From assembly GCF_900102695.1 (NCBI RefSeq), contig NZ_FMVW01000005.1:248001-312000 (forward strand): a stretch of 64,000 nt of DNA, read 5' to 3'. The DNA comes from Afifella marina DSM 2698 (GTDB taxonomy: Bacteria; Pseudomonadota; Alphaproteobacteria; Rhizobiales; Afifellaceae). Positions 7,476 through 10,732 of the stretch are shown piece by piece (the first letter of the stretch is position 1; every line of letters starts with the position of its first letter). The position numbers and the translations under genes were made by a program. The notes under the pieces are model-generated. The model saw only the letters and a list, made by a program, of their open reading frames with translations, ran no database searches and had not been told where the DNA came from.

Positions 7476-7564
7476 CAATGTGAGGTTGCGCGCTTCAGGG
7501 GGGATTCGATGGCGGGTGAAGACAGACGTCGTTGCGGGGGGGCTTGCCCGCGAGGTTGCGTGGC

Positions 7565-8806
7565 ATGAGCAGCGCCAATGCTTCGCCACGCACATCATCC
7601 GCCGATATGGCCGCCCCTCAAAGCATGCAGGTGTTTTCCGAGAGAAATGCTTGTTCTGCCGTGGAGGTGGTGGGCGACGTCCGCCAGACGGTGACGGCGG
7701 AGTTCCGCCGCGACTGGCGGAAATTGGCCGCCGAGGCCGGGACGCCCAACGCCTTTGCGGAGCCTTTTTTCGTCGAAGCGGCGCTTCAGCGCCTGGTGCG
7801 GCCGGGGAAGGTCAAGCTCGTCGCGTTTGCCGACGATCATGGGCTCATCGGTCTTCTGCCCCTGACCGTTTCTGCGCCGATCCCGGGCATCGGCCGTGTG
7901 GCCAATCGCTTTATGCACATTCACGATTTCGACGGCACGCCATTGGTGCGCCGCGGCAGCGAAGCTCTCTTCCGGACGAAGCTCGGCGCCTGGCTGAAGC
8001 ATGAAGGGATCGCCTTCCTGCGTCTGCGCGACGTGGAGGAGACAAGCCCCGTCATCGACGGGCTTCTCAACGAAGAGGATCAGACGCTTCAGGCCGCTGT
8101 GGTCGCCCGGCTGGTGCGCGCCTCTCTCCATCTCGGCTCCGGTGGGCTGGAGGCGATGCAATCGGGCAAGAAACGGCGCGGTATGCAGCGGCGCAAACGC
8201 CGGCTTCAGGAACTCGGAGAGCTTTCCTTCGTCGATCTGAGTGCGCAGCCGCCTTCCGCCTGGGCGGACGATTTCCTGACGCTCGAAGCGAGTGGCTGGA
8301 AGGGAGAGATGGGAACGGCGATCGCCTGCCGGCCGCAGGAGCGCGCCTTCTTCGAAAAGATGGTGGAGGCGGGAAGCGCCAGCGGGAATCTGATCGTCCA
8401 CGCTTTGGAGCTCGACGGGCGGCGCATTTCGATGACGCTTTATCTGCGCGCCGGCGATGGCGCCTGGGGCTTCAAGAAAGCCTATGCCAGCGATCTTGCG
8501 CGCTGTTCTCCCGGCTTCGTCCTGGAGGCCGAGAGCGCCGCAGCCCTCCAGGCGCAGGGCGAACTTGCTTTTGTCGACACCTGCAGCATCGATGCCGCGA
8601 CACTCGTTCCGGGTCTGTGGCCGCAAGAGCGGGCGATGGCCGACATCGTCGTTGCCGTCGGCTCCGCACGCAAATGGCTGAAGAGCGCGGTGTGGCTCGA
8701 GGAAACGTATCGGGCGAGGCGGCGCGATCTGCGCAGCCTTTATGTCCGGCTGAAACGCCTGCCCGCGCAGGCGCGCCGGGACCGCCCGGCCGCGACACAC
8801 AATTGA
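7565..8806 (+). CDS. GNAT-fold acetyltransferase, BioF2-like (PF13480-type)
   Basis: The 413-residue protein has the layout of BioF2-like/FemAB-related proteins: an N-terminal half starting with the ACDH-like region (FRRDWRKLAAEAGTPNAFAEP) and a C-terminal GNAT fold with RRGMQRRKRRLQELGELSF, ASGWKGEMGTAI and the FKKAYASDLARCSPGFVLE motif that binds the acyl donor in this group. No membrane segment is present. Such proteins are often linked to polysaccharide or cell-envelope acylation, but nothing adjacent confirms this. The start is uncertain: ATG 7565 is used, with in-frame ATGs at 7607 and 7625 as alternatives. The asd promoter overlaps its stop codon. Confidence 0.75.
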   Translation: MSSANASPRTSSADMAAPQSMQVFSERNACSAVEVVGDVRQTVTAEFRRDWRKLAAEAGTPNAFAEPFFVEAALQRLVRPGKVKLVAFADDHGLIGLLPLTVSAPIPGIGRVANRFMHIHDFDGTPLVRRGSEALFRTKLGAWLKHEGIAFLRLRDVEETSPVIDGLLNEEDQTLQAAVVARLVRASLHLGSGGLEAMQSGKKRRGMQRRKRRLQELGELSFVDLSAQPPSAWADDFLTLEASGWKGEMGTAIACRPQERAFFEKMVEAGSASGNLIVHALELDGRRISMTLYLRAGDGAWGFKKAYASDLARCSPGFVLEAESAAALQAQGELAFVDTCSIDAATLVPGLWPQERAMADIVVAVGSARKWLKSAVWLEETYRARRRDLRSLYVRLKRLPAQARRDRPAATHN

Positions 8807-8830
8807 CATTGTGCGCACCTGCGATAAAAC
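8803..8830 (+). promoter_or_regulatory. Sigma70-type promoter for the asd leader
   Basis: A perfect -35 hexamer TTGACA (8803-8808) is followed after 16 nt by TAAAAC (8825-8830). The -35 overlaps the stop codon of the upstream acetyltransferase gene, so asd can be transcribed independently. The predicted start near 8836-8841 lies at or within a few nt of the leader peptide ATG, giving a nearly leaderless transcript, as known for the trpE leader of Sinorhizobium. Confidence 0.65.
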
Positions 8831-8840
8831 CTCCGCCACC

Positions 8841-8876
8841 ATGATGAGCACAGCCAAGACGAAGACGACCGGCTAA
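8841..8876 (+). CDS. Putative Thr/Lys-rich leader peptide of asd
   Basis: An 11-codon frame encodes MMSTAKTKTTG and then TAA. It contains four Thr and two Lys codons among its 11 codons, with two Met at the start; Thr, Lys and Met are the end products derived through Asd. There is no ribosome binding site, which fits a leaderless start right after the predicted transcription start. A second ATG at 8844 would give 10 residues. It is followed six nt later by alternative hairpins. The reading as an attenuation peptide is inference from composition, position and structure; it is too short to be supported by coding statistics. Confidence 0.6.
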   Translation: MMSTAKTKTTG

Positions 8877-8881
8877 TCGCT

Positions 8882-8925
8882 CCGCCCCGATCTCTCCCCG
8901 GGGCGGGGGAGAGATGCTTTGTTTT
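8882..8925 (+). promoter_or_regulatory. Candidate transcription attenuator (antiterminator/terminator switch) for asd
   Basis: The terminator is a perfect 10-bp stem (ATCTCTCCCC at 8890-8899 with GGGGAGAGAT at 8906-8915, six-nt loop) followed by the U-rich GCTTTGTTTT (8916-8925). The antiterminator pairs CCGCCCC (8882-8888) with GGGGCGG (8900-8906). It uses the terminator loop and its first 3'-arm base, and leaves no linker for both to form. A ribosome at the leader stop codon (8874-8876) would cover 8882-8888 and favour termination. A ribosome stalled on the Thr/Lys codons (8850-8870) would leave it free and favour read-through. Confidence 0.65.
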
Positions 8926-8945
8926 CGGGGAGAGAGGAGCTAGAC

Positions 8946-9977
8946 ATGGGTTACAGGATCGCTGTCGTAGGTGCGACCGGCAATGTCGGGCGGGAAATGC
9001 TCGACATTCTCGATGAACGCGGTTTCCCCGCCGACGAAGTCGTGGCGCTCGCCTCCCGGCGCAGCCAGGGCACGGAAGTTTCCTTCGGCGACAAGACGCT
9101 GAAGGTGCAGGCACTCGAACATTTCGATTTCGCCAATGCCGATATCGCGCTGATGTCGGCGGGTGGCTCGGTGTCTCTGGAATGGGCACCGAAAATCGCC
9201 GCCAAGGGCTGCGTCGTCATCGACAATTCCTCGGCCTGGCGCACCGATCCGGACGTGCCGCTGATCGTGCCGGAAGTGAATGCCGACGCGGTTGCCGGCT
9301 TCGCCAAGAAGAACATCATCGCCAATCCGAACTGCTCCACCATCCAGCTCGTCGTGGCGCTGAAGCCGTTGCATGAGCGCGCCAAGATCAAGCGCGTGGT
9401 CGTTGCGACCTATCAGTCGGTTTCCGGCGCCGGCAAGGACGCGATGGACGAGCTCTTCAACCAGACGCGCGCCGTCTTCGTCGCCGACCCGATCGAGACG
9501 AAGAAGTTCCCGAAGCGCATCGCCTTCAACTGCATTCCCCATATCGACGTCTTCATGGAAGACGGCACGACCAAGGAGGAATGGAAGATGGTGGCGGAGA
9601 CGAAGAAGATCCTCGATCCGAAGATCAAGCTTTCGGCCACCTGCGTGCGCGTGCCGGTTTTCGTCAGCCATTCCGAAGCCGTCAATATCGAGTTCGAGGA
9701 AGAGCTTTCCGCCGAAGAGGCGCGCAACATCCTGCGCGAAGCGCCGGGCTGTCTCGTCATCGATAAGCACGAGCCGGGCGGCTACATGACGCCTTATGAG
9801 TGCGCCGGCGAGGACGCCACCTATATCTCCCGCATCCGCGAGGATCCGACGGTCGATTCCGGTCTTTCCATGTGGGTCGTGGCCGACAATCTGCGCAAGG
9901 GTGCGGCTCTCAACACCGTGCAGATCGCCGAACTTCTGGTGAACCGCAAGCTCCTGGAGAACCGCAAGGCCGCCTGA
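8946..9977 (+). CDS. asd: Aspartate-semialdehyde dehydrogenase
   Basis: Asd reduces aspartyl phosphate to aspartate semialdehyde with NADPH, the branch point to lysine/diaminopimelate, threonine and methionine. The protein has 343 residues. The N-terminal VVGATGNVGREML is the nucleotide-binding loop. The catalytic Cys130 lies in IANPNCSTIQ, and the SVSGAGKDAMDEL and VRVPVFVSHSEAVNIEFE regions match the family. The ATG at 8946 follows AGAGGAG; the codons upstream belong to the attenuator. The next gene starts inside the stop codon (TGATG). lysA and metX, which use its product, are elsewhere in the window. Confidence 0.97.
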   Translation: MGYRIAVVGATGNVGREMLDILDERGFPADEVVALASRRSQGTEVSFGDKTLKVQALEHFDFANADIALMSAGGSVSLEWAPKIAAKGCVVIDNSSAWRTDPDVPLIVPEVNADAVAGFAKKNIIANPNCSTIQLVVALKPLHERAKIKRVVVATYQSVSGAGKDAMDELFNQTRAVFVADPIETKKFPKRIAFNCIPHIDVFMEDGTTKEEWKMVAETKKILDPKIKLSATCVRVPVFVSHSEAVNIEFEEELSAEEARNILREAPGCLVIDKHEPGGYMTPYECAGEDATYISRIREDPTVDSGLSMWVVADNLRKGAALNTVQIAELLVNRKLLENRKAA

Positions 9978-10732
9978 TGGCGGGCGCGACGGGGAGAGGG
10001 GCGAGCGGCGGTGACAAAGCGGACCGGCCGCGTCTCCTGGTGACGGGCTTCGGCCCGTTCCCGGGCGTTGCGACCAATCCGAGCGCCTGGCTGGTGGAGC
10101 GGCTCGCCGACAAGGCGGGCGGGCCTCGCCTCGATGCCGATTTGCGCACCGCCATTCTCGCGACCGACTGGCAGGAGGGGCCGAACACACTCGACCTCCT
10201 CTGGCAGACGCACCATCCGGATGTCGTCGTGCATTTCGGTGTGGCGGCCGGGGCGCGCGGCTTTCGGCTCGAACGTGTCGCCCGCAATGCGAGGCTGGCG
10301 CGTCCCGACGTGCGGGGCGCTCTGCCGCCATCGGCGGAGCTGGAAGAGGCGGGGCCACCCTCCTGGCGCGGCTCGCTGCCGTTGCGGCGCATCCATGCGG
10401 CGCTGTCAGGCGCCGGCATTCCGGCCGATTTTTCCGACGATGCCGGCGATTATCTCTGCAATGCCATCTTCTATCGCTCCGGCCGCTATGCGGCCGAGGC
10501 CGGCCGCCTCGTCATGGCGGGGTTCATCCATCTGCCGTTCTGCGATTCCGCACCGGATGCCGCCGTTCCTGACGGTGTTCCTGCCGCGGTTCCTGACGGT
10601 GTTCCAGACGATGGCGTGGCGGGGCCGACCTGCCTTGCCGACGAGGTGATGCTGGCCGGCGCGCGTCTCGTTCTTGAGACCGCCATCGCAGCGTGGCGGG
10701 AGCGCGCCGGCTCGAGCTTCGATCGCGACTAG
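9977..10732 (+). CDS. Pyroglutamyl-peptidase I-like protein (peptidase C15 family)
   Basis: The 251-residue protein starts at ATG 9977, overlapping the asd stop, so it is translationally coupled. It carries the C15 opening LLVTGFGPFPGVATNPS and a plausible catalytic triad: Glu99 (FRLERVARN), Cys161 (DYLCNAIFY) and His185 (GFIHLPF). Such enzymes remove N-terminal pyroglutamate from peptides. It is longer than bacterial Pcp (about 215 residues), with an Asp/Glu/Pro-rich insertion before the last helix. That insertion includes an in-frame 24-nt duplication coding VPDGVPAA and VPDGVPDD (10565-10605). Its stop codon overlaps that of the convergent DUF2147 gene. Confidence 0.85.
   Translation: MAGATGRGASGGDKADRPRLLVTGFGPFPGVATNPSAWLVERLADKAGGPRLDADLRTAILATDWQEGPNTLDLLWQTHHPDVVVHFGVAAGARGFRLERVARNARLARPDVRGALPPSAELEEAGPPSWRGSLPLRRIHAALSGAGIPADFSDDAGDYLCNAIFYRSGRYAAEAGRLVMAGFIHLPFCDSAPDAAVPDGVPAAVPDGVPDDGVAGPTCLADEVMLAGARLVLETAIAAWRERAGSSFDRD

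Follow-up and report, generated by a model that had tools for sequence, protein, structure and literature searches.

A predicted Thr/Lys leader-peptide switch conserved upstream of asd, and an additional pairing next to the asd ribosome-binding site

Attenuation by a leader peptide, in which the position of the ribosome selects one of the alternative RNA stems, is established for the trp, his and thr systems, and the attenuator of the enterobacterial thr operon, thrL, controls thrABC and senses threonine and isoleucine. The locus analyzed here, located in a window of 64,000 nucleotides from Afifella marina DSM 2698, shares with thrL a Thr-rich leader peptide and, by prediction, a ribosome-set choice between antiterminator and terminator, but it precedes asd rather than thrABC and combines Thr with Lys rather than with Ile. 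Aspartate-semialdehyde dehydrogenase (Asd) is the branch-point enzyme at which lysine/diaminopimelate and threonine/methionine synthesis part, and it is required for cell-wall precursors; a leader reading the end-product codons of both branches would give simple combined feedback at the RNA level. The lysine riboswitch also provides lysine-responsive control in the lysine pathway, but it acts by direct ligand binding and has no leader peptide, whereas the element in the window has a predicted leader peptide and no Rfam match. Rfam (release 15) gave four matches for positions 8600-9200 of the window, all far below the gathering scores, and none at the gathering threshold in ten relatives, so that a known RNA family was rejected as an explanation.

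In the same order as the window, S. meliloti carries trpL, a Trp attenuator of trpE, for which we know of no third pairing at the ribosome-binding site. As described in the passages of PMC10117765 that concern it, this leaderless attenuator (rnTrpL/peTrpL) has a near-leaderless short ORF before the attenuator, as is predicted for the window, where the leader is one of Thr and Lys codons and the gene is asd. The only direct precedent found in our literature search comes from the same 2023 paper, in the passages that deal with SEP5 of S. meliloti, a small ORF in which six Thr and three Lys codons stand close to the 3' end, located in the 5'-UTR of a gene named 'aspartate dehydrogenase'; its translation was detected by Ribo-seq and by Western blot of a tagged fusion, and the authors suggested that it might serve as a leader peptide and described its conservation as limited to Sinorhizobium (PMC10117765). 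We infer that SEP5 lies upstream of asd. Judged from its description there rather than from its sequence, SEP5 appears to have the same composition and the same kind of place as the window leader, while the SEP5 passages of PMC10117765 describe no stems and the element reported here is found in 28 of the 52 examined families of the order. The first-pass annotation of this DNA knew of no described Thr/Lys attenuator on asd; on the evidence of those passages the idea of a leader peptide had already been put forward for SEP5, and it is the stems that they leave undescribed (PMC10117765). Among the passages listed by term searches within PMC1273637, PMC4117421, PMC2965389 and PMC4833913, none described an asd leader.

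In the window, asd (8946..9977, + strand) encodes 343 amino acids and was identified by NCBIfam TIGR01296 (asd_B, 483.5 bits, above the cut-off) and by the Pfam domains Semialdhyde_dh and Semialdhyde_dhC, and its Shine-Dalgarno sequence GGAG is at 8936..8939 (+). Upstream on the same strand is a GNAT-type acetyltransferase ORF (7532-8806, Pfam PF13480), whose sole NCBIfam match, to a crotonyl-transferase effector, scored 81 bits against a cut-off of 775, far too low for that name to be given to it. The -35 box TTGACA (8803..8808, +) overlaps the stop codon of this ORF, and a probable -10 box, TAAAAC (8825..8830, +; 4 of 6 matches), is located 16 nt from it; five congeneric genomes have ATTGAC and CGATAAAAC without variation, although they differ over most of the intervening spacer. 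Of the promoter suggested by the first-pass annotation the -35 box holds; the -10 box is weak, and a consensus scan of the region listed no promoter. Transcription is predicted to start at about 8836-8841, and the leader ORF (8841..8876, +), which encodes MMSTAKTKTTG in 11 codons with four Thr and two Lys (ATG ATG AGC ACA GCC AAG ACG AAG ACG ACC GGC TAA), is probably leaderless or nearly so. Such a start, also proposed at first pass, is plausible: among the 109 unique leaders collected from the wider sample (below), a -35-like box stands 34-38 nt before an in-frame start codon in 11, and a wider rule of 30-48 nt is satisfied by 16, compared with 1 of 109 on the antisense strand.

Between this ORF and asd, all on the + strand, arm D (8877..8889), the 5' arm of the putative antiterminator, is placed where a ribosome at the leader stop codon would cover it, and was delimited by local folding and by a D:B complementarity that beats all swaps of partners between species. 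Arm A (8890..8899), the 5' arm of the terminator-like stem, has B or C as its partner, and arm B (8899..8915) pairs with D through 8899-8910 and with A through 8906-8915, both arms being identified by the terminator scan, local folding and co-evolution. The terminator tail GCTTTGTTTT (8916..8925) has 7 U in its best 8-nt window, the highest value among 65 representative leaders, and is followed by arm C, CGGGGAGAGA (8926..8935), which has a conserved GGGGAGAG-like core, co-evolves with A, is a perfect 10-bp partner of 8891-8900 and lies directly upstream of the asd Shine-Dalgarno sequence. Arm C, complementary to A, had been missed in the first-pass annotation, whereas TTGACA, the leader ORF and the two mutually exclusive stems were all recovered where it had put them. 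The consensus scan, too, picked out the 10-bp terminator stem (8890-8915) with GCTTTGTTTT after it; in all it found five terminator-like sites in 2.6 kb where shuffled sequences average 2.1 per region. The antiterminator had been drawn too short, as 7 pairs between 8882-8888 and 8900-8906; a stem is present there, and local folding extends it to 12 pairs (8877-8878 and 8880-8889 with 8899-8910).

Taken on sequence grounds, this region is soundly described as a Thr/Lys leader-peptide switch that is conserved before asd and has a third pairing close to the ribosome-binding site, and we infer its functional steps, from translation of the leader in this genome and stalling through a kinetic preference for D:B to termination and the direction of control, as follows. 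When threonine and lysine are plentiful, the leader ribosome would reach the stop codon and cover D, B would pair with A, and the A:B hairpin with its U-tract would here end transcription before asd. When either amino acid is short, the ribosome would stall in the Thr/Lys codons and leave D exposed; D would then take B ahead of A, since transcription reaches the inner part of D's partner (8899-8906) first, and with A:B barred asd would be transcribed. Once D:B has released it, arm A could bind C next to the asd ribosome-binding site and so perhaps contribute control at the level of translation. We assign a probability of about 0.75 to Thr/Lys attenuation as such, that is, to attenuation through a leader peptide that ties asd expression to the supply of charged tRNA-Thr and tRNA-Lys. 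As expected of an attenuator, end-product codons make up a run of four Thr and two Lys among the 11 codons, and computation finds mutually exclusive stems that a ribosome could select by its position, with the reservation that full-length equilibrium folds do not favour D:B.

To see how the leader compares with those of relatives, 278 asd upstream regions (266 of them unique) were collected, and a leader was scored when at least three Thr and at least five Thr plus Lys were present in the last 14 codons before a stop located 55-235 nt before asd. The results showed that 119 of the 278 regions were positive, 109 of these being unique. With a strict rule based on Thr only (at least five Thr before the stop), 92 of the 266 unique regions were positive, whereas the antisense strand gave 0 and shuffling 0.2 per set, while the next amino acids in the same test were Arg with 42 (antisense 42, shuffles 28.8) and Ala with 18 (antisense 15, shuffles 11.2). 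The concern raised at first pass, that the composition of so short a peptide might be due to chance, is answered by these counts of 92 against 0 and 0.2. Thr and Lys are both raised from codon -15 to codon -2 and fall at codon -1 in the 65 representatives (Thr at -2 in 41 and at -1 in 9; Lys at -2 in 6 and at -1 in none), which fits with ribosome stalling upstream of arm D.

The same leaders bear on whether lysine is sensed at all, since threonine alone might be read, with the Lys codons serving as low-structure filler. Thr exceeds Lys by 2.6 to 1 over the last 12 leader codons, and the Lys codons of the 109 unique leaders are AAA in 155 of 221 cases (AAG in 66), a choice that also keeps RNA unstructured, whereas AAG is preferred at the start of asd in the same loci (AAA 96, AAG 327); the AAA preference may slow ribosomes or keep the leader unstructured. 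Against Lys as filler, all 92 leaders picked on Thr alone contain Lys, which is their commonest non-Thr residue (28.6%), while the other A-rich codons are absent (Asn) or nearly so (Gln, 0.4%), and we consider sensing of threonine alone unlikely, though deserving of attention, and retain joint sensing of both amino acids.

In terms of distribution, a Thr/Lys-rich ORF end before asd is present in 91 of the 159 genomes of the order, spread over the 28 families mentioned above, and its occurrence follows family lines: 21 of the 52 families have the leader in every genome examined, 24 in none and 7 are mixed, many families being represented by one genome. This order is large and includes nitrogen-fixing symbionts, and the 68 of its 159 genomes without the element must control asd by other means. 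Outside the order but within the same class, 56 genomes were drawn and 38 upstream regions examined, and 4 of these 38 carry the leader. Among 80 named loci, 23 pass the leader rule, the carriers including Roseibium, Stappia, Pleomorphomonas, Tianweitania and Chthonobacter; one of the 23 is a Bradyrhizobium locus (L109), which is likely a false positive, is counted within the 119 positives and 109 unique positives and falls outside the 159 order genomes, and the other Bradyrhizobium loci and the Rhodopseudomonas loci among the 80 fail the rule. A lack of conservation in relatives had been named at first pass as grounds for giving up the proposal, and what was found is that both the ORF composition and the competing stems are kept.

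The leader appears to be particular to asd among the pathway genes compared. No comparable Thr/Lys leader was seen in 100 loci around hom, thrC, lysC and dapA, some of which lie near contig ends. Of the 12 Thr-rich ORF ends in these loci (hom 1, thrC 0, lysC 4, dapA 7), 11 lack Lys and the remaining one has a single Lys codon. A common pattern recurs in five of the seven dapA cases, where coding sequence has probably been read out of frame; L378, the last of the dapA loci, is itself only a weak and partial match. With 11 of the 12 Thr-rich ends in these 100 loci lacking Lys, a wider Thr/Lys regulon was rejected.

For the analysis of the stems, an alignment was prepared that omits 11 of the 109 unique positives, namely L109 as a likely false positive, four loci from outside the order (L113, L132, L135, L174), two with a misplaced asd start (L022, L024) and four in which the layout differs (L030, L239, L275, L277); L187 and L192 were also dropped, and the resulting 96 sequences were thinned to 65 representatives at 75% identity. 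Local folds were computed from the leader stop codon through B. When D is free, D:B prevails in 46 of the 65 representatives and is not preferred in the other 19; when D is masked, as it would be under a ribosome on the stop codon, A:B prevails in all 65. A strong two-hairpin switch, defined as at least five pairs each way, is seen in 46 of 65 representatives in comparison to 133 of 650 dinucleotide shuffles, and a single sequence therefore proves little, since about 20% of the shuffles also behave in this way. When the full leader is folded to equilibrium and D is free, A:B enclosed within D:C outweighs D:B (mean pairs 5.1 for A:B, 4.0 for D:C and 1.8 for D:B), so that D:B has to owe its formation to the order in which the arms are transcribed.

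To further evaluate the helices, the complementarity of each arm with its own partner was compared with that of partners swapped from other species in 10,000 permutations. For D:B, A:B and A:C none of the 10,000 permutations reached the own-pair complementarity, also within GC bins, and the result holds in 58 long-leader sequences and in 44 sequences thinned at 60% identity. No co-evolution was detected in this test for D:C, D:SD, A:SD, A:E, D:E, B:E or E:C, where E is the stretch from B to C and SD the Shine-Dalgarno sequence; D:C, good in full-length folds, was rejected as a functional pairing on this account. In the per-position test, in the 10,000-permutation test and in the test of the coding sequences described below, the motif search had put the C arm of L001, and possibly that of further short leaders, on the B copy; repeating the main test with this placement barred gave the same result. 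Per-position covariation of A:C is weak because the core is mostly invariant. A test with 5,000 permutations was used for the coding sequences: the leader coding region was set against D, A, B, C and SD, and the start of asd against C, B, A, D and SD, with no pairing falling below 332 of 5,000, and the D:A row of this test was discarded since its mean energy was an artefact.

With these results an alternative can be weighed, namely that a Thr-rich frame arose by chance and that the hairpin is the ordinary terminator of the upstream acetyltransferase gene. It draws on a peptide of only 11 codons and on a terminator scan that finds stems in shuffled sequence as well (mean 2.1 per region), but it has to face a leader that is kept in 91 of 159 order genomes and nearly absent from shuffles and antisense strands, and three co-evolving helices. 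The leader counts, the excess of strong switches (46 of 65 representatives, as opposed to 133 of 650 shuffled sequences) and the distribution led us to reject it as extremely improbable, and Thr/Lys attenuation is retained in what follows.

The output of the attenuator is a different matter from its sensing. A good U-tract (7 U of 8) follows A:B in the window, which makes classical transcription attenuation likely there, and intrinsic termination as the output in this genome alone is, in our judgment from the sequence, slightly favoured over its absence. The U-tract is poor in 62 of the 65 representatives, only 3 having at least 5 U in an 8-nt window after the hairpin, and the tail is two bases shorter in two congeners (L004 and L005). 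Intrinsic termination therefore cannot be the conserved output, and the case for it is good only in this genome and its nearest relatives. Of the attenuation with a terminator proposed at first pass, the Thr/Lys leader and the competing stems are conserved in relatives and the U-tract is not. Outside the order, two class members (L135 and L174) have a Thr/Lys leader followed by an intrinsic U-tract terminator in the consensus scan, which most of the order seems to be without, and the scan gave no terminator after the leader in two others (L132 and L113).

The poverty of the U-tract in 62 of 65 representatives would also suit Rho-dependent attenuation, with the C-rich, G-poor Thr leader and D acting as a Rho loading site after the ribosome leaves, gated by the hairpins. 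The leader and D together average 39% C and 20% G in the 65 representatives, but Thr codons are C-rich in any case, and we regard participation of Rho as quite doubtful.

A closer competitor keeps the same Thr/Lys sensing and gives it a translational output, such that the ribosome position decides between A:B and A:C beside the ribosome-binding site, with no terminator in most relatives and perhaps none here; it is compatible with Thr/Lys attenuation as preferred above and swaps only the last step. Fewer than 5 U follow the hairpin in 62 of 65 representatives, A:C co-evolves (0 of 10,000 permutations), and C is conserved in place, its GGGGAGAG-like core starting at a median of 30 nt before the asd ATG in the 65 representatives (19 in the window). 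Moreover, when the modelled ribosome is moved from an upstream position to the stop codon, pairing of the Shine-Dalgarno sequence shifts by more than 0.05 in 39 of 65 leaders in comparison to 16 of 65 controls. These shifts, however, are split in direction, 23 leaders becoming more open and 16 less so, and the average unpaired probability stays at 0.49-0.52 at all ribosome positions, close to the 0.47-0.49 of controls, which speaks against simple sequestration of the asd Shine-Dalgarno sequence, and this was rejected. D:C and D:SD show no co-evolution, and C is usually upstream of the Shine-Dalgarno sequence so that A:C need not block it and might act with either sign. Translational output is plausible on this balance, at a little under even odds.

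D:B and A:C together would form a pseudoknot, which might hold the leader in its antiterminated state or influence how the ribosome binds. Extended to the whole order, this would give an asd attenuator without a terminator, in which the three competing helices D:B, A:B and A:C pass the position of the leader ribosome on to the ribosome-binding site of asd, a pseudoknot is the only form in which D:B and A:C can exist together, shortages of Thr and Lys jointly set Asd translation, and intrinsic termination is a side branch in Afifella and some other alphaproteobacteria; we offer this extension tentatively, and expect that it may well need revision. In sequence comparison the sensing part looks more constant than the output. 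The genomes form a natural series in which sensing is constant and the output, a U-tract terminator or an arm at the ribosome-binding site, seems to vary by lineage, and this makes the way in which attenuators change their output testable.

Two minor observations concern asd itself and the gene that follows it. In L022 and L024 (genomes G010 and G007) an ATG after the leader lies in frame about 16 codons upstream of the extrapolated asd start, and looks like an N-terminal extension of Asd. In the window, a pyroglutamyl-peptidase-like ORF (9977-10732, + strand; PF01470), which is under the NCBIfam cut-offs for pyroglutamyl-peptidase I, begins on the last base of the asd stop codon, and because of this one-base overlap the two genes probably share a transcript and the control of the leader.
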